Source: Nanobdellota archaeon
GTDB lineage: Archaea > Nanobdellota > Nanobdellia > SCGC-AAA011-G17 > UBA489
Assembly: GCA_030699455.1 (NCBI GenBank)
Contig: JAUYMN010000005.1
Coordinates: 1 to 32,396 of the forward strand
Direction of reading: 5' to 3'
Length of the DNA stretch: 32,396 nucleotides
Below the pieces are notes generated by a model. The model saw nothing but the letters and a program-made list of their open reading frames with translations, made no database searches and was not told the DNA's origin. Below are positions 1 through 31,642 of the stretch, in pieces; the stretch's first letter is position 1; each line of letters starts with the position of its first letter. The position numbers and the translations under genes were made by a program.

Positions 1-193
1 ATAATATATAATAATTAATATATACATTAAACAATAAAACAATAAATATCAATAAAACTAAGTTTCTGAGCCATAAAATAAAGAATCACGATAATAACAA
101 TAACAATTTTTTATAAATTCTCTATAGGAAATCATGGTGTAGGGCTATAGCAAAATCAACAGATTTTTAATAGTATAATTTACTAAACATTCA

Positions 194-1196: not shown

Positions 1197-3077
1197 ATGA
1201 CTACAACAGACTATAAAAATTATAAAACAACTAAGGACATTTCTGTTAGTAAATCCACAGTGGATCAGATTATTGGACAGGACGAAGCAGTAAATATAAT
1301 AAAAAAAGCAGCAAGACAAAGAAGAAATGTTTTATTAATTGGAGAACCAGGCACAGGAAAATCATTAGCAGGCCAGGGTCTCGCAGAACTAATACCTGAT
1401 GAAAGTTTAGATGATATTATATCAATGGATAATCCAGAAGACAACCACAAACCCCTAATAAAAATATTTCCTAAAGGAGAAGGGATAAAAACAATAAACA
1501 AAATTAAGTTAGAATCATTAAAACAGTTCAAAGGTCAGACAATTTTCTTTTATATTTTAATAATCATCACAATAGTTTCGCCGTGGTGGATAAGAAAAGG
1601 ATATGGGGATATTATGGCAGCAGCTTCATTAATTAGCTCAATGATGTTAGTTGCTTTATTTGTTTTGTTTATGAATTTGAATAAAAAAATGAATAAAAAA
1701 GCCATCAAAGTTCCAAAGATTTTAATTGATAACTCAAAAAAAGAAAAAGCACCATTTATAGATGCCACAGGATCACATACAGGAGCATTATTGGGTGATG
1801 TATTGCACGATCCTCTCCAAAGTGGGGGTCTCGGAACACCAGCATATGAAAGGTTGGTTCCAGGAATGATTCACAAGGCAAACAAAGGGGTTCTTTTTAT
1901 AGATGAAGTAGGTAACATGTCTCCAGCAACACAACAAGAGATACTAACATGTATGCAGGAGAAGAAATACCCAATAACCGGACAGTCAGAAAGATCATCT
2001 GGTGCAATGGTAAGGTCAGAAGACGTTCCAACGGACTTTGTATTGGTTGCAGCCGGAACATTAGACTCAATTAAAAAAATGAATCCAGCATTAAGATCTA
2101 GGATACGCGGTTATGGTTATGAAATAAACATGAACAGCCAGATGGAAGATAATTTAGAAAATAGGCACAAATTAGCAGTTTTTGTTGCACAGGAAGTAAA
2201 AAAAGACGGAAAAATTCCACATTTTACAAAACAAGCAGTCGACGAAATAATTCAAGAAGCTAAAATACGTGCAGGAGCATCAAAGAAACTAACATTACGT
2301 TTGAGGGAATTAGGAGGATTAGTTAGGGCAGCAGGGGATCTGGCATTAGAGGAAAATTCAAAAATAGTCCAGTCAATACACGTAAAAAAAGCAAAGATAC
2401 TAGCAAGAACATTAGAACAGCAAATTGTTGATAAATACATAAAAAACAAAAAAGACTACGAGGTTATTGTAACTACGGGGTCAAGGGTTGGACGGGTAAA
2501 TGGGCTTGCAGTAATGGGTTCAGACTCATACTATTCAGGATTAGTATTGCCAATAGAATCAGCAGTAACACCTGGTGGAAAAAGGGCAGAATTTGTTGCA
2601 ACAGGAAAACTAGGGGCAATTGCAAAAGAAGCGGTAAAAAATGTATCAGCAATAATTTTAAAATATTTTGGAGAAGATATCAAAGAAAAATATGATATTT
2701 TTATACAATTCCTACAAGTTGCCTCAGAAGGGGGAGGAGTGGAAGGCGATTCAGCATCAATAGCAGTGGCAACAGCAATAATATCAGCACTTAAAAAAAT
2801 TCCAATAAGACAAGACACAGCAATGACAGGATCCTTATCTGTCAGGGGCGAAGTAATGGCAGTGGGGGGCATAACACAAAAGATAGAAGCAGCAATCCAT
2901 GCAGGAATAAAAAGAGTCATAATACCAAGGACAAACGGCAAAGACATTTTACTAACAAGACAGCAACAATCAAAAATAAAAGTAATACTTGCAGATAACT
3001 TAACAGATGTTTTAAAAGAAGCACTTGTATGGAAAGGTCATGAAAAAATACTAAAAAAAATAACAGCCTCCAAATAA
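1197..3077 (+). CDS. lonB: archaeal ATP-dependent protease LonB
   Basis: Walker A GEPGTGKS, Walker [11 protein letters not shown], internal TM segments, C-terminal Lon protease domain with GDSAS catalytic Ser region and [12 protein letters not shown]. Confidence 0.95.
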
Positions 3078-3238
3078 GATTCTACAAATTTAAATAATAG
3101 TTTATAAATATTTTTTGAGTTGTAAACCCATTTGAAACCCACATATTTTACATTTAAAATAAGTCAAATCCCCCGACCACATTTTAATAAAATCCAAAAT
3201 AAAAACACTTATAATCTCATATTTCTGATAAAATTAAC

Positions 3239-3685
3239 ATGATAGTAAACTTTACATTGGATAAAATTTCAATAGAAAAAACAGGGATATCCAAAGGCAC
3301 AATAGAGGCCAAAAATAGCATAAAATTCCTAGATGTGGCAGAGAGCACACTTCCAGAAACGATGAAAGACCAGCACCTCATCAAATTTAAATTTCAATAT
3401 AAAATTTCATATCTCCCAAACATAGCCACAACGGAAATCATAGGCCACATTCATTTTATGTCTGATAAACAAACAAAAGACAAAATATTAAAAGCATGGG
3501 ACAAAGAATCAAAAATAGACCAATCCTTATCAAGAGACCTGGTAAATTATTTATTTCAAAGATGTAGTGTGATGGCACTTTCACTTTCTCAACAGGTGGG
3601 ACTTCCACCACACATAGCCCTTCCAAAAATAGCCATAAAATCTAGGGGCGAAGAACCAAAAAAAGAAAAGCCAAGGGCCTCATAA
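3239..3685 (+). CDS. hypothetical protein (possibly SecB-like fold, weak)
   Basis: 148 aa ORF, ATG, TATA-like ACTTATAATC about 26 nt upstream; fold suggestion is a guess. Confidence 0.55.
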   Translation: MIVNFTLDKISIEKTGISKGTIEAKNSIKFLDVAESTLPETMKDQHLIKFKFQYKISYLPNIATTEIIGHIHFMSDKQTKDKILKAWDKESKIDQSLSRDLVNYLFQRCSVMALSLSQQVGLPPHIALPKIAIKSRGEEPKKEKPRAS

Positions 3686-3745
3686 TTAAACACCTAAACT
3701 AAACTCCTACATAAATTTATATATTTCTTTGTAGTGCCCACAGTT

Positions 3746-4315
3746 ATGTACATCAGAACAAAATCTAGAAAAAATAAACAAGGAATCAAAAAAGAATATG
3801 CATATTTAGTAACATCTAAACGTCGCAAAAACAGCAAAAAGCCACCAAAACAAAAGATTATAGCATATTTAGGCCAGGTTATTCAGCTAAAAGATATACA
3901 ACAAACAACAACAAACAACAAACCATTAAAATCAATATTTAGAGACATGTTAAAAGAATTATTGATATTTAACGGCTTTAAACAGAAAAACAAAAACATC
4001 CTAACAAAAGGGGACATTCTCATTGATATATCAAAAAACAGAGTAATAAACATCAAAACAGCCAGAAAGATATGTTTAAGGGTAAATGAAGGCCATATAA
4101 CAGGTTATACCCTAAAGAAGCTTTTTAATTATAAGCCAATAGAAGCCACCAAAAAGGAGGTAGGCCTTGATTTTGCCAAAACATTGGTGTCTGCAGGTCT
4201 AAAACCTTCTAAGGAAGACTTTTTAACCTTATACTCAAAAATTTTAAGGTTTCCACAGGAAATGAAGGGGTTCACGCAACAACACGCAACAACACGCAAC
4301 AACACACAACGATGA
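3746..4315 (+). CDS. hypothetical basic protein with decamer-repeat-encoded C-terminal tail
   Basis: ORF track starts at GTG 3734, but ATG 3746 lies about 26 nt after TATA box TTTATATATTT (3716-3726). C-terminus GFTQQHATTRNNTQR is encoded by the 10-bp repeat. Confidence 0.65.
   Translation: MYIRTKSRKNKQGIKKEYAYLVTSKRRKNSKKPPKQKIIAYLGQVIQLKDIQQTTTNNKPLKSIFRDMLKELLIFNGFKQKNKNILTKGDILIDISKNRVINIKTARKICLRVNEGHITGYTLKKLFNYKPIEATKKEVGLDFAKTLVSAGLKPSKEDFLTLYSKILRFPQEMKGFTQQHATTRNNTQR
3902..3921 (+). repeat. two tandem copies of CAAACAACAA
   Basis: direct reading; same unit variant as in the 4622-4721 array. Confidence 0.8.
4273..4310 (+). repeat. 10-bp tandem repeat: 3x CACGCAACAA + partial CACACAAC
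   Basis: direct reading at the 3' end of the 3746-4315 ORF. Confidence 0.95.
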
Positions 4316-4367
4316 CTAACAACAAGAAAGCTTAAATAATTCCATAACCACCCACTCTTGATAACAA

Positions 4368-5048
4368 ATGGATGATAAAAACAGCTTATTTCAAGAAAAT
4401 ATACGCAATTCTTTCTCTAAAGTCAAATTAGACATAGATTTATTCTCAGAAAATCTAAATATCTTAAAAAAAGACATTGATAACTTAAAAAATGAAAATT
4501 CAGACTTAAAATTAAAAATAAATGAAATATTCGAGATTTTAAAGGAAATTAAGGCTAATATGGGTAATAACCACAATAGTGAAAATCCCATTTTTTTTGG
4601 TTCTACCGGAAATAATGGGGTCACGCAACAACACGCAACAACACGCAACAACACACAACAACACACAACAACAAACAACAACAAACAACAACACACAACA
4701 ACACACAACAACACACAACAAGCAAATCCTCGAGAATTATACCTCGAAAACATCTTCAAAAGCCTCACAGATCGCGAATTTTCTACATTTTTGGCAGCAT
4801 ACGAGATATCAAGGGAATACGGAGAAGTCACCTTTCAACAGCTCGCAGAGCGTTTAAAGCTTACAGAAGCGTATTTAAGAGGTTTAGTAAGAACAATTAT
4901 TAACAAAAAGGTACCCCTCGAGAAAGAAAGAGTCATGCACGGCAGAGTCTCTATTTTTATCAGAAAAGACTTCGACGTATCTACCCTAGAAAAAATAATG
5001 CGTAGGAGACTGGGAGATAGCTCCGAACAAATGAAACTTGGTAATTAA
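4368..5048 (+). CDS. coiled-coil / repeat linker / winged-helix-like DNA-binding protein
   Basis: N-terminal heptad-like region LNILKKDIDNLKNENSDLKLKINEIFEILKEI, QQHTTTHNNT linker, C-terminal HTH-like FQQLAERLKLTEAYLRGLVRTIINKKVPLEKER. Confidence 0.7.
   Translation: MDDKNSLFQENIRNSFSKVKLDIDLFSENLNILKKDIDNLKNENSDLKLKINEIFEILKEIKANMGNNHNSENPIFFGSTGNNGVTQQHATTRNNTQQHTTTNNNKQQHTTTHNNTQQANPRELYLENIFKSLTDREFSTFLAAYEISREYGEVTFQQLAERLKLTEAYLRGLVRTIINKKVPLEKERVMHGRVSIFIRKDFDVSTLEKIMRRRLGDSSEQMKLGN
4622..4721 (+). repeat. 10-copy perfect-period 10-bp tandem repeat (CACRCAACAA/CAAACAACAA)
   Basis: direct reading: CACGCAACAA x3, CACACAACAA x2, CAAACAACAA x2, CACACAACAA x3. Confidence 0.97.
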
Positions 5049-5452
5049 AATGGGATTTATCCCTCACTTTTCAAAATTCTTTCGATTTTTGGGCTTTTTA
5101 TAAAAACCATGTTTACTTTTAACCCTAATTCAACTATTAGATACCTCTTTTTCACAGAAACCCATAGTTTAAAATTATTCAACAATAAAAAGCTCACTTT
5201 CTCAAAATTAAACTAAAAAAGAACGTATATTTTCAAAGCCACCACCACAAAAACTCCCTTTTTATGTTTTACATGATCAATAACCTTTTTATTTTTACTC
5301 ACTTTTTATAAATAAACCCTTTTTCAAAGCCCACACTACCTCTAACCAATAATTTATGATGCTAACCCACCATCATGGCTACCATTTCTATCCTCTAATT
5401 TTAGAAAATAGTAAAAATTCACACTTTTTTTCAAAATATTTTTATTTTTTTA

Positions 5453-5664
5453 GACGTCGACGGATCATAACCACAATAGATTATATTTTAACAGCATCCT
5501 AAAAACACGTCGTAGACGTCTACAAAATTACTGTTTATTTATAAAAGGCGTCGACGAGCTTTATAAAAGGCGTCGACGAACCTGTCGATAACGCGTCGAC
5601 GACGCGTCGACGACGTCTACGAACCGTCGACGACACGTCTGTAGACGTCTACGACACGTCGTAG
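5453..5664. promoter_or_regulatory. cluster of CG-centred palindromes, candidate operator/centromere-like array
   Basis: six GTCGAC and four GACGTC in about 210 bp; GTAGACGTCTAC palindrome twice (5512-5523, 5641-5652); ACGCGTCGACG twice in tandem (5591-5612); CTACGAC-AC-GTCGTAG (5649-5664). Confidence 0.75.
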
Positions 5665-5697
5665 AATCCTACGACGCATTACCAAACAAACAGTATG

Positions 5698-5706
5698 TTT
5701 ATAAAG
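5698..5706 (+). promoter_or_regulatory. TATA box for the 5729 gene
   Basis: GTTTATAAAG about 26 nt upstream of ATG 5729, immediately after the palindrome cluster. Confidence 0.6.
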
Positions 5707-5728
5707 GAAAACAGCCTTAAAACACCCC

Positions 5729-6361
5729 ATGGGCTTTCTATTCTTCCGGAAAAAAAGGTCAGAGTCTGATGAAGCGTTAGAAAAAGTAAATCAGATATCC
5801 AATAATTTAAAAAATTCATTTAACAGAATAAAATCAGACATAAAAGTAATTCGTGACTGGCTTTCCTTTTTCAAAACTAAAAATGAGGAATACAATCAGA
5901 ATTTTAAGAATATAGAATCTAGGCTGGATGAAATGGGGGAAGTCCTCGCATACTTAACTGAAAAGGATCAAATTATACAAAAAGCCCAAATATCACCAAA
6001 AGCACCAAAAGAAGCCCAATACTATGATTATGAAGAACCAAGATCTACAAAAATAACACCATTAGACCACCTCACAGATACTCAAAAAGCCATATTTTTT
6101 CGTTTAGGGGCATTTCAAAGAGAGTCTGGTCAAGAATGGACACCACTAAAAACACTTGCACAGGACATATACCCTGGAAAAACATATGATAAGGTTCGTT
6201 CAACCATCTCTGAATACATTGGAATTTTAGTGGATGTAAGTCTAATCAAAAAAAATCGCAAAGGCAAACAAACATACATAGGGATTACAGAAAAAGGACA
6301 AGAATACCTCCAACAAAACGCTCCAAAGAATACAAAAAAACCACTTCAAAAAGGAAAATAA
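5729..6361 (+). CDS. coiled-coil / winged-helix-like DNA-binding protein
   Basis: N-terminal predicted coiled coil (VNQISNNLKNSFNRIKSDI...IESRLDEMGEVLAYL), C-terminal wHTH-like LTDTQKAIFFRLGAFQRESG...YDKVRSTISEYIGILVDVSLIKKNRKGKQTYIGITEKGQEYL. Confidence 0.7.
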   Translation: MGFLFFRKKRSESDEALEKVNQISNNLKNSFNRIKSDIKVIRDWLSFFKTKNEEYNQNFKNIESRLDEMGEVLAYLTEKDQIIQKAQISPKAPKEAQYYDYEEPRSTKITPLDHLTDTQKAIFFRLGAFQRESGQEWTPLKTLAQDIYPGKTYDKVRSTISEYIGILVDVSLIKKNRKGKQTYIGITEKGQEYLQQNAPKNTKKPLQKGK

Positions 6362-6591
6362 GGACATATTAAAACAATAAATGATTGATCTACCCATATT
6401 CACAAAATTTAGTCAATTTTTTTCTCAAGGGCACTAAAAAAGGAGCATTACCATCAATTAATAATAGCAACTAAACGTTTATATGATTTTGTGGTAAAAT
6501 TATAATACATAAAAATTACCTAAGATTAAAATATATAAACAATAAAAACCAATCATTTATAAATAGATATATTATCTCAGTTGCCTAAAAA

Positions 6592-6978
6592 ATGAGTAAT
6601 GAAGTGACAACAAAGATAGGAACTTACTTTCCAAGTGATGCTGGAAAAGTAGATGTAGTATACTCACAAAAGGCAGGCAGATCTCCTTCAAGAGACCAAA
6701 AAGTAAATCCCAAATGGGGCATTGATCGCAGAGCAAATGATATGCCACCATATCTAGTTTTAATAAAAGACAGAAAGGGCAGTAGTGGGGTTGTTTTTGG
6801 TTCAGAAGAACCAATTAATCCAGAACATCTAACAGAATTGAGTACATTAATAACTGAATCAATAAGACCATTAGAAAGAAGACCAACATTTTCAGAAATT
6901 GCAAGAATACTGGAAAAAAATTTAGAAGGAAACTGGAATTACAAACCGGTAAAAACTGAATTGACATCTATAGAATAA
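6592..6978 (+). CDS. hypothetical protein
   Basis: 128 aa, ATG, TATA-like TTTATAAATA about 30 nt upstream. Confidence 0.6.
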   Translation: MSNEVTTKIGTYFPSDAGKVDVVYSQKAGRSPSRDQKVNPKWGIDRRANDMPPYLVLIKDRKGSSGVVFGSEEPINPEHLTELSTLITESIRPLERRPTFSEIARILEKNLEGNWNYKPVKTELTSIE

Positions 6979-7007
6979 TTTTTAACTAATACCACCCCTA
7001 TTAATTT

Positions 7008-10559: not shown

Positions 10560-11393
10560 TTACAGATTGTCCATTGGACTTTGCACTTTTTTTAGTTGTT
10601 CTGTAGACACCTTAGTATATCTCTGGGTTGTAGATATATCTGAGTGTCCCAATAGCTCTTGTATAATTCGTATATCTGTTCCGGTTTCCAACAGGTGTGT
10701 TGCAAAAGAGCTTCTTAATGCATGACAAAAAATCCGTTTTTTAATCCCTGATTCAACAGCAGCTTCATTGACAATCTTCTGTGCCATCCTTGTCGTTATA
10801 TGGCCTTTGTAGGAATTAAATATATAATCAGAATCATGTTTCCTATTTTTCAGATAATTTTTCAAATTTCCAATAAAACCGTTGGACAGTATTATGTTTC
10901 TATCTTTTTTGCCTTTTCCAGACCGAACAATGCCCATTTTTTCATGCAAATCCAAATCATTGACCTTTAATTTTACAGCCTCAGAAACTCTTAAACCAGA
11001 AGAATACAACAATTCAATCAATAACCGGTGTTTGGTATTTTTTGGAGCATCAAGCAACTGTCTTATTTCCAATTTAGTTAAAACTGTTGGCAATTTTTTC
11101 TCAATTTTTGGAGCTTTAACTTCTGTAAAAATATTCTTCTTTAGTATATTTGTAAAATAAAATTTTATAGAAGATAATGCCAAGTTAATTGAAGCAGGCT
11201 TATGTTTTTTTGACATAAGGTGAGCAATGTATTTTTTTACATCCTGTTCATTAACGCCCTTTACAGGCTTATTTACATAACTTAAAAAATCATTATTGTG
11301 CCTCAAATAACTTTTTATAGTTGCATCAGAATACCCTCTTATTTTTAATTCTGTTTTCAAATTATCCAAAACAACACCACCTTTTGTTCGCAT
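10560..11393 (-). CDS. xerA: tyrosine recombinase, Xer/XerA-like
   Basis: GLRVSEA (R), GKGKKDR (K), HALRSSFATHLL (HxxR), LLGHSDI (H), QRYTKV (Y); start chosen at MRTKGG, about 23 nt from a TATA-like ATATTTAAG; ORF track extends to 11429. Confidence 0.85.
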   Translation of the reverse strand: MRTKGGVVLDNLKTELKIRGYSDATIKSYLRHNNDFLSYVNKPVKGVNEQDVKKYIAHLMSKKHKPASINLALSSIKFYFTNILKKNIFTEVKAPKIEKKLPTVLTKLEIRQLLDAPKNTKHRLLIELLYSSGLRVSEAVKLKVNDLDLHEKMGIVRSGKGKKDRNIILSNGFIGNLKNYLKNRKHDSDYIFNSYKGHITTRMAQKIVNEAAVESGIKKRIFCHALRSSFATHLLETGTDIRIIQELLGHSDISTTQRYTKVSTEQLKKVQSPMDNL

Positions 11394-11445
11394 AATATGG
11401 AGTAGATAAGAGCTTAAATATGTTTCCAACTTAAATAAAATTGCA

Positions 11446-14863: not shown

Positions 14864-15718
14864 TTAATTTCGCAGCACTTCATAAATAGAATCAAAAATG
14901 GGTTGATCAGTGGAAAAACTATAAAATCCGGCGCCAAAAGAACCGGCAATCCATTTTAATTTTGCATTGTGTTCATCCTTTCTTTTAAAATAAACTTTTT
15001 TAGCAACATTATCCATAAAAGCTCTTACAACTTCACTTGTTTCAAGATCTCTTAATTTCAAATCACCTTTAAGGTTCATCTTCTGTTCAACTTCATCCAA
15101 GACCTGTATTAATTTTATTTCACAATTTTTAAATCTTCCAAGACTTCTTTCAATTTCTTTAATATCATAAAAAAAATCACTGATGACAATAATCATACTC
15201 CTAGAGCCTATTTTTTTTACATAACCAACTAAAGATTCTTCAAAGTTACTCTTACCTTTGGCCTCTTTGGTCTTTAAATAATCTATTACCTTTACAAACT
15301 GTCTTTTGCCCCTTCTCGGAGTAAACATCTCCAAGCTGTCTGAAAACGTGCTTAAAACAAACTTTTCATTCTTTTTCATTGCCATGTATGCAAACGCAAG
15401 CCCAATCATAGAAGCATAATCAAACTTTTCAACTTTTCCAGAGGCATACCCCATTGATTTGCTTGAATCTATGATGATATGCACAGTAAGGCTTTTATCT
15501 TCTTCATATTTTTTTACATGTAACTTGTCCGTCCGTCCATACACTTTCCAGTCAATATCTCTAAAATCATCACCAGAAGAATATATTCTGTGATCTTTGA
15601 ACAGATTTCCCTTGCCAGTGTGGAAGCTCCTTCTTTCACCAATGTAATTGGAAGAAATCCTTTTTTGAATCAGCAGGCTCATTCTATCCAGATGTTTAAG
15701 AAAATCATCTTCAATCAT
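14864..15718 (-). CDS. DUF58 / vWA-like domain protein
   Basis: FHTGKGNLFKDHRIYSSGDDFRDIDWKVYGRTDKLHVKKYEEDKSLTVHIIIDSSKSM (DUF58 signature, DxSxS). Confidence 0.92.
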   Translation of the reverse strand: MIEDDFLKHLDRMSLLIQKRISSNYIGERRSFHTGKGNLFKDHRIYSSGDDFRDIDWKVYGRTDKLHVKKYEEDKSLTVHIIIDSSKSMGYASGKVEKFDYASMIGLAFAYMAMKKNEKFVLSTFSDSLEMFTPRRGKRQFVKVIDYLKTKEAKGKSNFEESLVGYVKKIGSRSMIIVISDFFYDIKEIERSLGRFKNCEIKLIQVLDEVEQKMNLKGDLKLRDLETSEVVRAFMDNVAKKVYFKRKDEHNAKLKWIAGSFGAGFYSFSTDQPIFDSIYEVLRN

Positions 15719-16665
15719 TTTAAGAGATATTTAACTACATCATCTCCATCAAAATTATTTCTCTCAGCTTCAAAATTCAAAATAATTCTGTGCCTCAATA
15801 TAGGCAAGGCCATTTCTTTAATATCTTCTTTGCTAACATAATTTCTTCCCTCAATAAGCGCTTTTGCTTTTGCAGCCATTAACAAACCTATGCTTGCTCT
15901 CGGGCTTGCACCGTACTCAATTAATTCTTTGTGACTTCTTGTTTTTTGCACAAGTCTAACAACATAATCTTTTATATCATTTGCAACTGGAATTTTTCTT
16001 ACCATATTCTGCATCTGGATTATTGTATTTGCATTTAGGAGTGGTTTAAGCTCATCATTGCTTCTATTTTCTTCGGCATATCTGTTTAATATTTCAGCTT
16101 CAGCTTCTTTGCTTGGATAATCTGTCTTAATCTTAAATAAAAATCTGTCGCTCTGTGCTTCCGGCAACGGATAGGTACCCTCCTGCTCAATAGGATTTTG
16201 TGTAGCCAAAACAAAGAATGGCTGATCCATTTTAAAAACCTGCGTGCCAACTGTAACCTGCTTCTCCTGCATCGCTTCAAGAAGGGCGCTTTGTGTTTTT
16301 GGCGTTGCCCTGTTTATCTCATCCATCAAAACCATATTTGCAAATAGCGGTCCTTTCTGAAATACAAAATCTCTCTTGCCATTCATTTCTTCTAGGACAT
16401 ATGTTCCAATAATATCTGATGGCATTAAATCAGGAGTTCCCTGTATTCTGCTGAAACTTAAATTCATAAGCTTGGCTAAAGTGTTTACTGTAAGTGTTTT
16501 AGCCAGTCCAGGATAACCTTCCAACAATGCATTTGCTCCACATAAGATAGAAATTATAACTTGCTTTAAAACATCTTCCTGACCAACAACAATATACTCT
16601 GCATGGTCAAGAACCTCATCAACAATTCTTTTTACATCTTGGACAGATTTTATATTTGAATCCAT
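15715..16665 (-). CDS. moxR: MoxR-family AAA+ ATPase
   Basis: Walker A LLEGYPGLAKT, Walker B MVLMDEINRATPKTQSALLEAMQE, LATQNPIEQEGTYPLPEAQSDRF. Confidence 0.95.
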   Translation of the reverse strand: MDSNIKSVQDVKRIVDEVLDHAEYIVVGQEDVLKQVIISILCGANALLEGYPGLAKTLTVNTLAKLMNLSFSRIQGTPDLMPSDIIGTYVLEEMNGKRDFVFQKGPLFANMVLMDEINRATPKTQSALLEAMQEKQVTVGTQVFKMDQPFFVLATQNPIEQEGTYPLPEAQSDRFLFKIKTDYPSKEAEAEILNRYAEENRSNDELKPLLNANTIIQMQNMVRKIPVANDIKDYVVRLVQKTRSHKELIEYGASPRASIGLLMAAKAKALIEGRNYVSKEDIKEMALPILRHRIILNFEAERNNFDGDDVVKYLLK

Positions 16666-16713
16666 TTAACATACTCCTCACTGCAACCCATCACCCCGCA
16701 ACTAACAAAAATT

Positions 16714-17511
16714 TCACTGTTTATTAAGATTATTGTAAAAGTTCTCTACTATTTCCATCTCATCTACATTTATACTTTCACTGTATGAAGAATCCTGTTT
16801 TCCACCAATCACGCCAGTGAATTTCTTGCCGTTAGAACTGCCTTCTCCAAGTTCGCCATTTTTGTCAAGATCCAGCTCATTTGCTTCAGTAGCTAATTCA
16901 AACTCAAGTTCCCTTTTTCCTACATTGATATCACTTTCTTCCCCATATATATCACCAGTTTTTCTTCCAGGAGTATTGCTTTCATCATCAAGAAACAGCC
17001 CAGTAATTCCACTGATACCCCTATCAAATCCGTCAGATTTTACGGCACTAACAAGATTAAATCCACTAAACTGCATGTAGAATATCAACATACCAATGGC
17101 AAAAATACCACCAACCCTTTTTAATGTTCTCTTGCCACTAAGTAAATCATAAATTCCAACGAAACCAATTTTCTCAGCAACTTCCAAGTTTAATCTTTCT
17201 ATTATTTCATTTGTTCTTTCAGAATTATCAGATGCAGTCCTAAGCTGCCATTCAAGATCAGGTATTTTCTTCTCAATTTCTCCCAAACTGGCTTTCTTTG
17301 CAGATTTAAGGAATCCAAAGACAAGATAACCCCCACCTATGATTATTGAATACATGAAGGATATGCCAAATAAAAGTAGCGCACCAGATACTATCAGGCT
17401 GATTAATATGCTGTCCAAAAAACAATCAAAGAACTTAGTATAAACAAGCCCCCTTTTCAAACGGGAGATATCCCCCCTAATATTTACCATCATTACAAGT
17501 ATGGTGAACAA
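16714..17511 (-). CDS. membrane protein of the MoxR-vWA cluster (unknown)
   Basis: two TM regions, acidic C-terminal region; overlaps the upstream gene. Confidence 0.65.
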   Translation of the reverse strand: MFTILVMMVNIRGDISRLKRGLVYTKFFDCFLDSILISLIVSGALLLFGISFMYSIIIGGGYLVFGFLKSAKKASLGEIEKKIPDLEWQLRTASDNSERTNEIIERLNLEVAEKIGFVGIYDLLSGKRTLKRVGGIFAIGMLIFYMQFSGFNLVSAVKSDGFDRGISGITGLFLDDESNTPGRKTGDIYGEESDINVGKRELEFELATEANELDLDKNGELGEGSSNGKKFTGVIGGKQDSSYSESINVDEMEIVENFYNNLNKQ

Positions 17512-18059
17512 ACACTCAAACTCATGTCAATATCGCCATTGTCATCAGTTATGCATAGCTTGTATGCATCAACAAGTTCCCTCTGAGTAATCAAATCATC
17601 TTCTAATCCTTTAATTTGGCTTTTTAGCTCCTTAATATCTCCGTCAAGCTCGGTTTTTTCTTTTTTTAAAATATCATTAATATCTTTAAGGTCATCATTC
17701 TCTTTGTTTAGTTCACTTTCACTATTCTTTTTTTCCTCTACCTTTTGTGCTAGGTCATTAACATTACCACTCAAATTTTCCAGTTCAGAAGTTTTCAATG
17801 CAAGCTGGTCACTCAAGACCTGATTACCTTTTTCCAATGAACTGACCCTTGAAAAATACACAAAAACGCCGGCAACCAAAACAATAACAAGCACCAAAGA
17901 AACAACCTTCAGCCCATTGCCACTTTTGTGGACATGCCTGACATCATAATCACCTTTTTTTTCAAACTGCAAACCACTCTCTTTCAGCTTTGTGAGCTCC
18001 TTGTTAACTCTCTCCAAATCTTTTTCTCTTTTTTTTGCTCTCCACTCTTCTATGCCCAT
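17493..18059 (-). CDS. single-TM coiled-coil protein of the MoxR-vWA cluster
   Basis: TM VVSLVLVIVLVAGVFVYF followed by a long coiled coil (VNDLAQKVEEKKNSESELNKENDDLKDINDILKKEK...). Confidence 0.7.
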   Translation of the reverse strand: MGIEEWRAKKREKDLERVNKELTKLKESGLQFEKKGDYDVRHVHKSGNGLKVVSLVLVIVLVAGVFVYFSRVSSLEKGNQVLSDQLALKTSELENLSGNVNDLAQKVEEKKNSESELNKENDDLKDINDILKKEKTELDGDIKELKSQIKGLEDDLITQRELVDAYKLCITDDNGDIDMSLSVCSPYL

Positions 18060-18085
18060 GATGTTTATTTCAAAATAAATCCAGT

Positions 18086-20386
18086 TTAAATATTTTTGCG
18101 TTCCTGAATAGTCCTAAGCCACACATCCATTATAAAAATAATCATGGCAAGGGCAATAAACGGCCATATAAACAATTCCTCATCCACGCTTAAAACATTG
18201 GCCTTTTCTTTAAGATAATTTGAAATATCTCCAAGCTCTTCAGCCCCGCTGAATATTTTCCCGCCACTTATATGAACAATATTCTCCAGTTCTTCATTAA
18301 TTCCCAAGAATTCAAATTCATCATTATAATTTACATCATATTTATCATCTCCAAAATCATAAAATCCAGGACTTTCAGCACGAGTCAAAGCCATATACGC
18401 CCCATCAGCCCTCTTTTCAAACTTTAGATTGCTTCCAGAAGGTTTCTCTCCTTTTATTATGAGCCTGATATCCTCACCAACCCTTGCATTTTCAACAGAG
18501 AAAAAATATGGTTTTTTTCTTTCGGCATCTCCAGCACCCCAACTTATAATTCTGCTAACTAATTTTGAGTCCTGTCCTTTATACATATCTCCTGCCCAAA
18601 AATCTCCATTGTCTGTTGAAAGAACGGCAATTCTCCCAAGCCCCTGTCTCCATACACTTAGAACAGGATCACCCTTGCCAGAGGTAACTAAAAGCTGAGC
18701 AGAATTTTTTGGCAAAACTTGGTTAGTTCCATAAACATCCCCAGTAATCACCATTTTCTCAGTTATGAAATGTTTTGCATCTTCAATCTTTAACCCAGAA
18801 GAATCAGCCTTCGTTTCCTCAGGATCACCAAATTCAAATGCCAGCTGATGTGCCTGACTTGCCAGATAATATTGCCCTCCGGTGAAATCACTGATTCTTT
18901 CTAAAACTGAGTTTGGATTGTTTCCCACACCAACAGAATAGATTTTAACACCATTATCAAACGCGTTATTAATAATAGGCATCCAATCTCCCTGGCTTGC
19001 ACCGTCACTAATTAATATTATATTTTTTCCACCACCCTTCCCATTTAGCATCTCAAGGGCAGTGTTTATCCCAGCACCAATATTGGTGTATCCCTCGGCT
19101 TTAAGTGATGCAATTTTGCTTTTTATTTCAGTCTTATCTTTGTCTTCAAGAAGTCCAAGTTCTTCAATAACAACACCATCTGAGCTGAATGCAACAGCAC
19201 CAAGGTTATGCTGATCCGCAATATTATCCACAACACTCATCGCAAGAGCCTTCGCAACTTCTGCTCCTGTACTCACACCATAATCCGTACCAGTACTGCT
19301 TGATATATCAATAACAATTACTACATTTACATTACCTGATTTTTTCCCGACACCTTCAACTTTCACAGGAAGCAAATCTTCAAAATCACTTCCAGAATAT
19401 CCGCCATATTCAAAAGAATTCTTTCCACCAACAACAACAAGACCATTTCCATTTTCCACATAAGACTTTAACAGTTTTACATTATTTTCAATCTCAGAGA
19501 TACCCCTGTTGTCAATGACGACTGCATGATATCTATCAAGATTGTATAATCCACCAATACTAACATCATATAACTTAAGCAGTGTCTGATGTAGTGGACT
19601 CCCTTCTCCCCCAACCAGCAATATTTTTGGCTTCTCAACAACCTTCAGGCTGTGGTAATAAACATTGTTTTCTTCAAAGAAGTCCTTATCTAAAATTCTT
19701 GCAGTAATCTCATGGTACCCTTCACTGAATTTAGTAGTATATTCAAGATTTGTAGAGCTTCCACCCATAACCTCTTTCCCATCAACAAGCAGTTCCAAAA
19801 TTCTTTCAGAATCATCTGTGCCATCCACAAAAACATTGAATGTAGCTTCGCTGTTAGAGCCAACCTTTGATGGGCCAACAATAGAAACAGAGTAATCATC
19901 TTCTTCAGGCTCTTTTTTCAGAAGGCTTATGCTGAGATTTTCTATGACTGCAATTTCTTTTGCTTTCTCCAACAGCTCTCCATCATTAACATTCCCATCA
20001 CTTAGCAGCACAATATTCTTTCCATCTTTCATAGATGAAATTAAAGCATCCCCTACATTGGAAACCAAACCTTCTCCAAAAACATCAAAATTAACTCTTC
20101 CATTTCCCTTTAGCTTGTCATAAACAGTTTGTCCAAGATTTTCACCAAACACATCATAGGATGAACTGTTATCTTCTAGAACTGCCAGTTTTGATACCCC
20201 TCCACCAAACATATTAAATGGAGAGTATAATCCTGCAAGTGCAAGCACCAACATTAGTAAGATAATACTTCTTGTAAAAAACAACCTTTTATTTGTATGC
20301 ATCAATACAAGCATGACCAGTAGTACCACTAATATCAAAGTAAGATATCCAGGTGATACAAAATAATTGTTCAGGAAATCAAACAT
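18086..20386 (-). CDS. large membrane vWA protein with GATase1-like/BatB-like architecture
   Basis: N-terminal TMs, MIDAS DISSS in VVIVIDISSSTGTDYG, C-terminal TM near FIWPFIALAMIIFIMDVWLR. Confidence 0.85.
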   Translation of the reverse strand: MFDFLNNYFVSPGYLTLILVVLLVMLVLMHTNKRLFFTRSIILLMLVLALAGLYSPFNMFGGGVSKLAVLEDNSSSYDVFGENLGQTVYDKLKGNGRVNFDVFGEGLVSNVGDALISSMKDGKNIVLLSDGNVNDGELLEKAKEIAVIENLSISLLKKEPEEDDYSVSIVGPSKVGSNSEATFNVFVDGTDDSERILELLVDGKEVMGGSSTNLEYTTKFSEGYHEITARILDKDFFEENNVYYHSLKVVEKPKILLVGGEGSPLHQTLLKLYDVSIGGLYNLDRYHAVVIDNRGISEIENNVKLLKSYVENGNGLVVVGGKNSFEYGGYSGSDFEDLLPVKVEGVGKKSGNVNVVIVIDISSSTGTDYGVSTGAEVAKALAMSVVDNIADQHNLGAVAFSSDGVVIEELGLLEDKDKTEIKSKIASLKAEGYTNIGAGINTALEMLNGKGGGKNIILISDGASQGDWMPIINNAFDNGVKIYSVGVGNNPNSVLERISDFTGGQYYLASQAHQLAFEFGDPEETKADSSGLKIEDAKHFITEKMVITGDVYGTNQVLPKNSAQLLVTSGKGDPVLSVWRQGLGRIAVLSTDNGDFWAGDMYKGQDSKLVSRIISWGAGDAERKKPYFFSVENARVGEDIRLIIKGEKPSGSNLKFEKRADGAYMALTRAESPGFYDFGDDKYDVNYNDEFEFLGINEELENIVHISGGKIFSGAEELGDISNYLKEKANVLSVDEELFIWPFIALAMIIFIMDVWLRTIQERKNI

Positions 20387-22178
20387 GGTAGGTCTCGCTC
20401 CTTAATTTTTTATTTCCGACAATCCACTCTATTATAACAAGAATCATTGCAGTAATAATAAGCCATTCCCATATACTTTTTTTTACTAATTCATCTTTAT
20501 TGATAACAGATATATTTTCACCTTCACCACTAGTAGCACTTTCTTCAAGACTAGACTCTCTTTCATTCAGAAGATTTGCAGAATATATCCTGCCTTCAAT
20601 TTTATAAAAGCCCGCCTCATCAAATAATATAATATTACTTTTCATGTTTCTTCCTGATGGTTTTTCAAATGAAACCTCATCTCCGAAGGATATTGTGCTT
20701 CCAGTAAGGAGATTCATGGTGCCAATACTCCTCACACCACCAAGATGTTTTACAAACCTTGTCCAAAATAGCGGATAATCTGGCCTGTTTTGGAATCCCT
20801 CATTCTCATTAGGAATCCCATAGTAACCTATCAATCCACTGCCAGATGGTTGCACCATAATCAAAGGCTGATCTCCAGAAGTAACATAAACTCCGTCGCA
20901 TTTTCCTTGACATTTTATCTGTCGGACAGTATCCTGCCTTCCAAAATCAAGCCCCTGCGTAAATGATGCATCAGTGGTTATTGAAGAATCCCCTCCTCTT
21001 ACTTCGCTTCCGATATCAAAATTCAGCAGTCCTGCATAATTGCCAGATATGCCATCTTCAGCAAAGACAATTATGCTTTTCCCGGAGTTCAATTCTTCAC
21101 TTAGCATTTCTGAGAGCTTGCTGTTTATGCTCTTGATTTCACTTAAAATATAAACATCGTAATTACCTTTTTTTGCACTGCTTGGATTCTTCACGGAAAG
21201 GTCTATCTCACTTGATGCCTCAAGTGCAGCTTGAAGGTATTTGTTTTCTCCGCCAGTTATCAAAAGAACTTTTGCATTTTCATCCTGCTGGTTTGAAATG
21301 TGAACATTGTTATCCCCTCTAATTTCATCATCCAAAAGAAGCTTAATAGTGCTACTTCCAAAGACAGTATCAAACTTATAGCTATAGGTCTCACCTTCAT
21401 TAAGAGTAATAACTTCATTTTTTCCATCATAGTTAATAGATACCTCTTTATTGCCACAGCAAAAATTCTTTACTACTGCAACACCATTTGTCTTTCCAAG
21501 AATTAATGAGATAAATCCAGCATTATCTTTGTTTTTTGTATTGATATTTATAAGATTAACAGGAATGCCCATGTCTTTTATGGTCTTTATTTCCCCATCA
21601 ATGTTTTCACCTTCAGTTTCTAAAAAGTCACTTATAACTACTATTGCTTTATCGCCAGAAACATCTTCTGCAATTTCCCTTGCAGCTTTCAGGCTTTCCG
21701 TTATAGCAGATCCAGTATCCTTTTCCGTCAGGCCTTTTATCTCCTTTCTTGCTTGATTTTCATCACCCTCTTCAAGAAGGATATTTGGCTTGCTTCCAAC
21801 GAGGATTATTGTGTTTTTATCGCCTATGTTGTTAAGTGCAGACTCTTTTAGATTATCAAATTTATTTCCACTAATGCTTGCACTTGTATCAAGAACCAAA
21901 ACAACAGTGCCACTGCTAACATTGCTCACAGTTATATATGGCGCGGCAAAAAATAATGCTATCAATCCAAGGATTAATATTTGCAACAACAACAACCAGT
22001 CCTTTATCATTCTCCTGAAAAATCCAGATTTGCTTTTGAATTCCCTTGACTTGTTTAGAAAAATGAGGGAAGGAATAACAACCTCTTTTGGTTTTGGTCT
22101 TATGAAATAAAGAATAATAAATGGCAGTAATGCCAATAGCCCAAATAATCCTACCAAGTTGCCAATGCCAATATTCAT
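20379..22178 (-). CDS. BatA N-terminal domain / vWA membrane protein
   Basis: N-terminal GLFGLLALLPFIILYFIRPKPKEVVIPSLIFL (BatA-like), MIDAS VLVLDTSASISG, C-terminal TM. Confidence 0.87.
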   Translation of the reverse strand: MNIGIGNLVGLFGLLALLPFIILYFIRPKPKEVVIPSLIFLNKSREFKSKSGFFRRMIKDWLLLLQILILGLIALFFAAPYITVSNVSSGTVVLVLDTSASISGNKFDNLKESALNNIGDKNTIILVGSKPNILLEEGDENQARKEIKGLTEKDTGSAITESLKAAREIAEDVSGDKAIVVISDFLETEGENIDGEIKTIKDMGIPVNLININTKNKDNAGFISLILGKTNGVAVVKNFCCGNKEVSINYDGKNEVITLNEGETYSYKFDTVFGSSTIKLLLDDEIRGDNNVHISNQQDENAKVLLITGGENKYLQAALEASSEIDLSVKNPSSAKKGNYDVYILSEIKSINSKLSEMLSEELNSGKSIIVFAEDGISGNYAGLLNFDIGSEVRGGDSSITTDASFTQGLDFGRQDTVRQIKCQGKCDGVYVTSGDQPLIMVQPSGSGLIGYYGIPNENEGFQNRPDYPLFWTRFVKHLGGVRSIGTMNLLTGSTISFGDEVSFEKPSGRNMKSNIILFDEAGFYKIEGRIYSANLLNERESSLEESATSGEGENISVINKDELVKKSIWEWLIITAMILVIIEWIVGNKKLRSETYHV

Positions 22179-30660: not shown

Positions 30661-30828
30661 ATGGGTGGTGGAAAGCGCAATTATCGGACTATGAGGTCAC
30701 AGTTTAGAAAAAAAGCAAAAAAAGATGAATCACAAGATAAGGTTGATGAACCTAAGAAAAAACCAAGCGATGAAGACGTAAATAAACTTTTGGAGTTGTT
30801 TAAGAAAAAAGATGATGAAAAAAATTGA
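30661..30828 (+). CDS. small basic protein (55 aa), absent from the ORF track
   Basis: MGGGKRNYRTMRSQFRKKAKKDESQDKVDEPKKKPSDEDVNKLLELFKKKDDEKN*; between nuclease and methyltransferase, overlaps methyltransferase start. Confidence 0.55.
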   Translation: MGGGKRNYRTMRSQFRKKAKKDESQDKVDEPKKKPSDEDVNKLLELFKKKDDEKN

Positions 30829-31642
30829 CAGGCCTACATTTGTGAAGTGGGCTGGTGGGAAAAAACAATTGATAGAACAATTTAAACAATTTTTTCCACA
30901 AGAAGCAGAAAGATACTTTGAACCATTTGTTGGTGGCGGTGCAGTTGCTTTCTATGTTATACAAAAGAACCACCTGAAAGAAATTTACCTGTCAGATATA
31001 AATGAAGAATTAATCAATTGTTATGAAGTGATACGGGGCAATGTTGAAGAATTAATAGACAAACTGAAACAACACCGAAACAATCATAATAAGGAATATT
31101 ATTATGCTATAAGAGAATTGACACCAGAAATTTTATCGAAAGTAGAAAGAGCCTCAATATTTATTTACTTAAATAAAACTTGTTTTAATGGTTTATACAG
31201 GGTAAATTCAAAAGGAAAATTTAATGTTCCAATGGGGAGCTATAAGAACCCATCAATCTTCCACGAAGATGATTTAAGAGAACTATCAAAAATACTGAAA
31301 AATGTAAAAATCTTAAAAATGCATTTTGAGAAAGTATCAGAATATGCAAAAAAAGGAGACTTTATTTATTTTGACCCGCCTTATTACCCTCTTCAAAAAG
31401 GGAAAAGCTTCACATCATATACAAAAAATAATTTTTCAGAAAAAGACCAGATAAGATTAGCAGAGGTATTTCGAGAGCTAGACAAGAAAGGTTGTAAGGT
31501 TATGTTATCCAACAGCGACACAAAATTTATCAAAGAATTATACCAAGGATACAATATTCACATTGTTAAAGCAAAAAGAATGATAAATTGCGATGCCACA
31601 AAACGAGGGGCTATAAATGAGGTCGTCGTAACAAATTATTAA
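30812..31642 (+). CDS. DNA adenine methyltransferase, D12 class (Dam-like)
   Basis: FVKWAGGKKQLIEQFKQFFP, YFEPFVGGGAVAFYV, NKTCFNGLYRVNSKGKFNVPMG, IYFDPPYYPL. Confidence 0.93.
   Translation: MMKKIDRPTFVKWAGGKKQLIEQFKQFFPQEAERYFEPFVGGGAVAFYVIQKNHLKEIYLSDINEELINCYEVIRGNVEELIDKLKQHRNNHNKEYYYAIRELTPEILSKVERASIFIYLNKTCFNGLYRVNSKGKFNVPMGSYKNPSIFHEDDLRELSKILKNVKILKMHFEKVSEYAKKGDFIYFDPPYYPLQKGKSFTSYTKNNFSEKDQIRLAEVFRELDKKGCKVMLSNSDTKFIKELYQGYNIHIVKAKRMINCDATKRGAINEVVVTNY

Follow-up and report, generated by a model that had tools for sequence, protein, structure and literature searches.

The working arrangement closest to the locus described here is that of the iteron partition sites tubC/TubR and parC/ParR, direct-repeat iterons of plasmids that lie upstream of a gene for a DNA-binding protein; the protein covers the repeats and thereby shuts down the operon that encodes it (PMC5016525), and TubR is a wHTH protein. 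The SegAB system of the Sulfolobales combines palindromic sites near the origin with a site upstream of the operon, and its SegB protein, which has a ribbon-helix-helix (RHH) fold and a ParA partner, binds the consensus TCTAGA-S-TCTAGA, which is odd-centred with an AGA-g/c-TCT core (PMC12284271). WhiP, a winged-helix protein, is encoded beside an archaeal origin, oriC3 of Sulfolobus (PMC4010727), and AspA of pNOB8 is an archaeal centromere-binding protein. Archaeal oriC1 joins origin recognition box (ORB) sequences and linkage to cdc6 with an extra origin motif, ucm, that has a binding protein of its own, UBP. In Bacillus subtilis, the DNA-binding protein RacA tethers a chromosomal site to the membrane or the pole. 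Noc of the same bacterium tethers chromosomal sites to the membrane via an N-terminal amphipathic helix (PMC4331003).

In the window, which is the whole stretch of 32,396 nucleotides analysed, two genes on the plus strand flank the array described below. According to the AlphaFold2 models, gene A (4368-5048) encodes an N-terminal coiled coil (residues 3-66), a disordered linker (74-115) and a C-terminal wHTH domain (121-214), and gene B (5729-6361) encodes a protein with the N-terminus MGFLFFRKKR, a long coiled coil (12-87) and a C-terminal wHTH domain (111-196), which is modelled with confidence. The two proteins are homologous (hhalign probability 98.6, E 1e-15). When the window proteins were scanned, neither A nor B matched a Pfam or NCBIfam family above the cut-off, and their relatives gave only weak and scattered HTH matches in these databases. 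Both genes are near-universal in the order: of the 61 genomes searched, 54 have B and 50 have A, mostly as single copies, and the pair stands side by side at the 41 loci studied; the profile of family A gave matches in 179 of the 240 genomes of the phylum, many of the relatives compared being incomplete genomes.

Foldseek searches with B returned generic wHTH proteins, mostly repressors, and the list included TubR (6aht) and AspA (4rs8), with matches no better than those to common repressors. AspA also gave a weak profile match (E ~0.005), which is no better than that of generic MarR/ArsR proteins, and differs in that no ParB-pNOB8 or ParA partner is encoded beside B. A hydrophobic-basic motif, approximately M-x-W/F-x-F-x-K-K, is found at the N-terminus of 34 of the 38 B proteins (5729-5760 in the window) and might be an anchor to the membrane or to a partner. 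This would make B comparable to Noc, if the N-terminus does bind the membrane, although the motif is only about 10 residues long and the likeness is one of description.

The intergenic region between A and B measures exactly 680 bp (5049-5728), as had been estimated in the preliminary description, which also listed a dense cluster of palindromes ending at 5664. A motif search of the window located every one of them where it had been placed: GTCGAC at 5456, 5550, 5572, 5595, 5606 and 5626, GACGTC at 5453, 5515, 5612 and 5644, GTAGACGTCTAC starting at 5512 and 5641, ACGCGTCGACG starting at 5591 and 5602, and CTACGACACGTCGTAG at 5649-5664. A final element, CTACGACG (5669-5676), carries the cluster to 5676. 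When the gap was shuffled 2000 times with its dinucleotides preserved, GTCGAC and GACGTC together occurred 0.20 times on average and at most 3 times, compared with the ten sites observed, and the 11 perfect 8-bp palindromes of the cluster with a shuffle mean of 2.3 and a maximum of 9. All six copies of CGTCGACG in the 770-kb genome lie inside the cluster, so that the random scatter over the genome that was named beforehand as an argument against a functional site was not seen. Chance or low complexity as the origin of the cluster is ruled out by the shuffles together with the genome-wide counts. With up to one mismatch, GTAGACGTCTAC occurs twice in the cluster and once elsewhere in the genome (C12:36903); this lone copy (L001:1501-1512, G000) is located just 3' of a RadA-type gene.

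The palindromes are the units of a phased array of the iteron CGTC[G/T]ACGA (5453-5676, plus strand), mostly 11 bp apart, the units of the core (5549-5676) standing approximately one or two helical turns from each other. Exact units are found at 5549, 5571, 5594, 5605, 5614, 5625 and 5646 on the plus strand and at 5510 on the minus strand, and further near-matches are present in the cluster. In relatives with the same type of array, the core CGTC[G/T]A is spaced by 11 bp (n=24), 10 bp (n=5) or 12 bp (n=4), and the 11-bp spacing is one helical turn. The sites CGTCGACG and AGACGTCT are even-centred. About 20 bp past the final iteron begins a TATA-like box of gene B, TTTATAAA (5698-5705, plus strand), which was recognised by sequence only, and similar boxes lie within the array at 5538 and 5560. 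No Rfam match to a structured RNA was found across 3000-7000. The 11-bp phasing, the one-way CTCACTTT repeats and the ORBs in and before A, which are described below, as well as the conserved pairing of the flanking wHTH genes, are additions to the preliminary description.

Phased short repeats upstream of a wHTH gene, with 11 bp as the dominant spacing, are a feature that the tandem A-B loci share with tubC. In nearly all of these loci a phased array lies directly upstream of B, in many of them with its centre ~70-110 bp before the B start, and CGTCKACGA units are concentrated upstream of B in most congeners. The sequence of the array differs by family (CGTCTACGAAC, GTGACGTCAC, GAACGTTC, GTTAACTGTTAAC and TAACAATAAC types), and drifted types, including GTTAAC and TAACA, keep the position upstream of B. 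The conservation upstream of orthologues that had been set as a test was therefore found, with the arrays recurring in place and drifting in sequence. Array k-mers track the distance between B wHTH domains when the A wHTH is controlled for (partial Mantel 0.505, 0/2000 permutations), this one proxy being the only control for phylogeny. Uniqueness in the genome, recurrence upstream of B and co-variation with the B wHTH support the initial proposal that the array is read by an adjacent wHTH protein, and B is probably this reader.

At convergent loci, in which B is flipped towards A, the wHTH domain of B differs and little or no array is found at the promoter. In four of them (L078, L092, L105 and L107) a 12-bp periodic array is located within the coding linker of B, and an array in the same linker was recognised by eye in the class relatives L197, L199, L205 and L208; the B genes of the convergent loci L082, L087, L093 and L102 gave no clear sign of a periodic array.

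Upstream of the array, the gap contains three copies of CTCACTTT found by motif search on the plus strand (5063-5070, 5193-5200 and 5298-5305). The A-to-B regions of the 41 loci carry 92 of these repeats in the forward and none in the reverse orientation. The copies in the window and in the clusters of more distant orders stand ~100 bp apart, and their sequence is shared between orders, unlike that of the B array. The extended form AAC[C/T]CTCACTTT is concentrated at the A-B locus in most of the 14 genomes tested, and the A-B gap of G015 lacks the CTCACTTT repeats. In more distant orders (L209-L211 and L214), CTCACTTT clusters adjoin B-A genes, and no ORB was found in A at these loci.

Another component of the locus is located in gene A itself. 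The coding sequence of A contains an ORB, TCTACCGGAAATAATGGGGT (4602-4621, plus strand), and GTTCCACAGGAAATGAAGGGGTC with its close variants is present in 41 of 41 A genes, always on the strand of A. This ORB fits the published common motif TCCA[CG]T[TG]GAAA[TC][GA]AAGGGGT (PMC4164010). Its translation is the linker peptide STGNxGV, although in four A genes (L071, L072, L077 and L088) the box is translated in a different frame, which indicates that selection acts on the DNA and rules out conservation at the level of the peptide. The ORB is directly followed by 10-bp tandem repeats (4622-4731, plus strand) encoding a Q/N/T linker, and in the relatives by tandem repeats of 4 to 10 bp. The window and its congeners (L070-L073) have a second ORB ~110-135 bp upstream of A, which in the window is TCCACAGGAAATGAAGGGGT (4252-4271, plus strand), followed before the A start by 10-bp C/A-rich tandem repeats, AACACGCAAC (4272-4310, plus strand). 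Repeats upstream of A and inside A of the same genome share 423 7-mers, compared with 129 expected and a maximum of 218; this match within genomes suggests that A reads both, that is, the repeats beside the ORBs.

These features tie the A-B locus to the origin, together with the closeness of cdc6 and a compositional signal in one relative, and the earlier proposal of an origin or partition link thus gains support from a cluster that lies within an ORB- and cdc6-linked locus. As at described orc1/cdc6 origins, the ORB motif is matched (41/41 loci) and cdc6 is nearby, since orc1/cdc6 lies 4-15 kb from the A-B locus in seven relatives. In the genome under study cdc6 is located on another contig (C12:231-1337), with an ORB at C12:103 that is probably the partner of a cdc6-type ORB, TCTATAGGAAATCATGGTGT, at the contig edge in the window (121-140, plus strand), which would form one arm of oriC. 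It seems to be here that contigs C12 and C14 both terminate; the start of the window (1-193) is a contig break that probably falls within oriC, and C12 begins with the other ORB and cdc6. A survey of cdc6-upstream regions (nine loci, seven of them legible) revealed, in several relatives, an AT-rich stretch with ORB-like boxes in inverted orientation on its two sides. The A-B gap contains no inverted ORB pair, all ORBs at the locus point one way, and none is located in the array. The core of oriC seems to lie upstream of cdc6, at least 4 kb away, which places the array near, and not in, a classical origin. The locus resembles oriC1 with its ucm motif in the ORB sequence, the cdc6 linkage and an additional motif that may have its own binding protein, and differs in having an ORB within a coding sequence and always in the same orientation; the comparison with ucm is made by description.

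The strand asymmetry at fourfold sites of G012 has its change point at 220-238 kb, where cdc6-A-B occupies 232-241 kb (0/200 permutations); the change point of G031 is weak (237.6 kb, 14/200), and G015 has no compositional switch at the locus. The asymmetry of G015 (L110-L146, a contig of 736,702 bp) is uniform, the plus strand being A-rich at fourfold sites in all bins and C-rich overall, in genes of both orientations, with no origin/terminus switch. Because of this uniformity round the contig, the raw GC skew of this one-contig relative is uninformative, and the uniform asymmetry suggests that replication might be one-directional, as was proposed for a Microgenomates bacterium (PMC7143001).

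The reading that we prefer, with a probability of about 0.6, is that the array, as approximately ten phased, dyad-symmetric iterons, is the DNA site of the neighbouring protein B and belongs to a polar, origin-linked module. The order of this module would be the ORB and short tandem repeats in A, the CTCACTTT repeats, the B-iteron array and B. B would dimerise via its coiled coil and occupy the phased sites along one side of the helix, giving a compact nucleoprotein body beside oriC. Such a body might control the promoter of B and also act as a centromere or an origin anchor, possibly via the hydrophobic-basic N-terminus of B, and the paralogue A probably acts likewise, both at its promoter and at the repeats that adjoin the ORB. 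The B-bound array would thus be centromere-like or a site of initiation control that also controls B; the data fit both segregation and initiation control. Binding, oligomerisation, autoregulation, anchoring or segregation by B are each something that we infer.

Unlike the tubC/TubR and parC/ParR sites, the array is chromosomal and origin-linked, B combines a long coiled coil with a C-terminal wHTH, and no gene similar to TubZ or ParM adjoins it; no cytomotive NTPase of the TubR/tubC kind was found among the scanned window proteins. The preliminary description had noticed no SegAB genes in the window, and a scan of 20 window proteins agreed with it, giving no clear match to ParA/SegA. No motor gene adjoins B, and the ParA-like ATPases of the genome lie elsewhere, not at the locus. 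Among the relatives, no ParA-like ATPase was found in one 92%-complete congener, and in G015 there was only a weak match. Since B has no motor gene as its neighbour and not every genome encodes a ParA-like ATPase, it is unlikely that the system is driven by ParA. More speculatively, and as a suggestion that we make with reserve, A and B with their fast-evolving arrays, the ORB in A, a polar 'centromere' and a membrane anchor in the N-terminus of B could form a ParA-independent, class-wide means of chromosome maintenance in archaea with tiny genomes.

The explanation that survives best beside the preferred one, with which it overlaps, is a role in replication control, in which A and B would help to initiate or regulate replication at the origin, in the manner of WhiP or an iteron Rep protein, and the array would tune initiation. 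We consider it possible, though doubtful. The ORB is joined directly to the repeats of A, the wHTH model of A resembles, among others, the winged helices of ORC/Orc1 (7jgr and 2v1u in Foldseek), and some members of the A family match DnaD_N weakly; these wHTH similarities are, however, generic, the array is without ORBs, and its 11-bp phasing and rapid change in sequence are no less reminiscent of partition sites. WhiP itself is the larger protein and has two wHTH domains but lacks a long coiled coil. The A-B locus is also distinguished from that of WhiP, by description, by the presence of cdc6 and ORBs. A regulatory use of such elements does have a parallel in Haloarcula hispanica, where extra ORB clusters were proposed to regulate oriC2 (PMC4010727).

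It is rather unlikely that the array is an operator only, at which B would repress or activate the transcription of its own gene with no part in chromosome maintenance. For the tandem loci an operator would be explanation enough, as in many of them the array centre stands at its short distance upstream of B, beside a TATA-like box, and the promoter of A also carries repeats matching those of its own linker. Approximately ten sites over 220 bp, in one place per genome, are nevertheless many for an operator, the arrays in the coding region of B instead of the promoter at several convergent loci argue against an operator-only role, and the locus is repeatedly linked to ORBs and cdc6.

A recombination site or the remnant of a mobile element, for example a target of the XerA-type tyrosine recombinase encoded near the locus (10560-11429), is very improbable, given that nearly all genomes of the order have A and B, mostly once each and side by side, and that the array sequence shifts between families in step with B. 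Least probable of all, and hardly to be entertained, is an archaeal SegB-type centromere, which the preliminary description had suggested from the GTAGA/TCTAC ends of palindromes now placed near an origin, much as SegB sites also cluster near oriC1: the odd-centred 13-bp AGA-S-TCT motif is absent, the consensus and its centre differ from the even-centred sites here, both neighbours are modelled as wHTH and not as RHH proteins, no SegA adjoins them, and the SegB sites described in the literature occur dispersed along the chromosome, whereas the sites of the array are at one place.

No description of the A-B locus was found in the open-access literature, and its novelty is provisional because subscription papers and preprints were outside the search. 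To our knowledge, the initiation of replication and the segregation of chromosomes in such archaea are largely unknown, and the module, spread across a large group of archaea with tiny genomes, looks like an undescribed way of managing the origin. Judged by the size and the gene content of the genome, the archaeon under study is probably of the DPANN type. The near-universal gene pair, the iteron arrays, the coding ORB and the one-way repeat make a testable candidate for the missing machinery of origin management or segregation. Ori-Finder 2 scans only intergenic DNA for ORBs (PMC4164010), which suggests that it and other predictors restricted to intergenic DNA would miss ORBs located inside coding sequences.

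Several other genes may be mentioned. At the convergent loci L078 and L092, the gene immediately upstream of the flipped B encodes a Xer-type recombinase. In the window, the minus strand of 14864-22178 carries an ordinary-looking operon with a MoxR-type AAA ATPase and membrane and vWA-like proteins, and a D12-class adenine methyltransferase, possibly a restriction-modification gene, is encoded near the window end (30812-31642).
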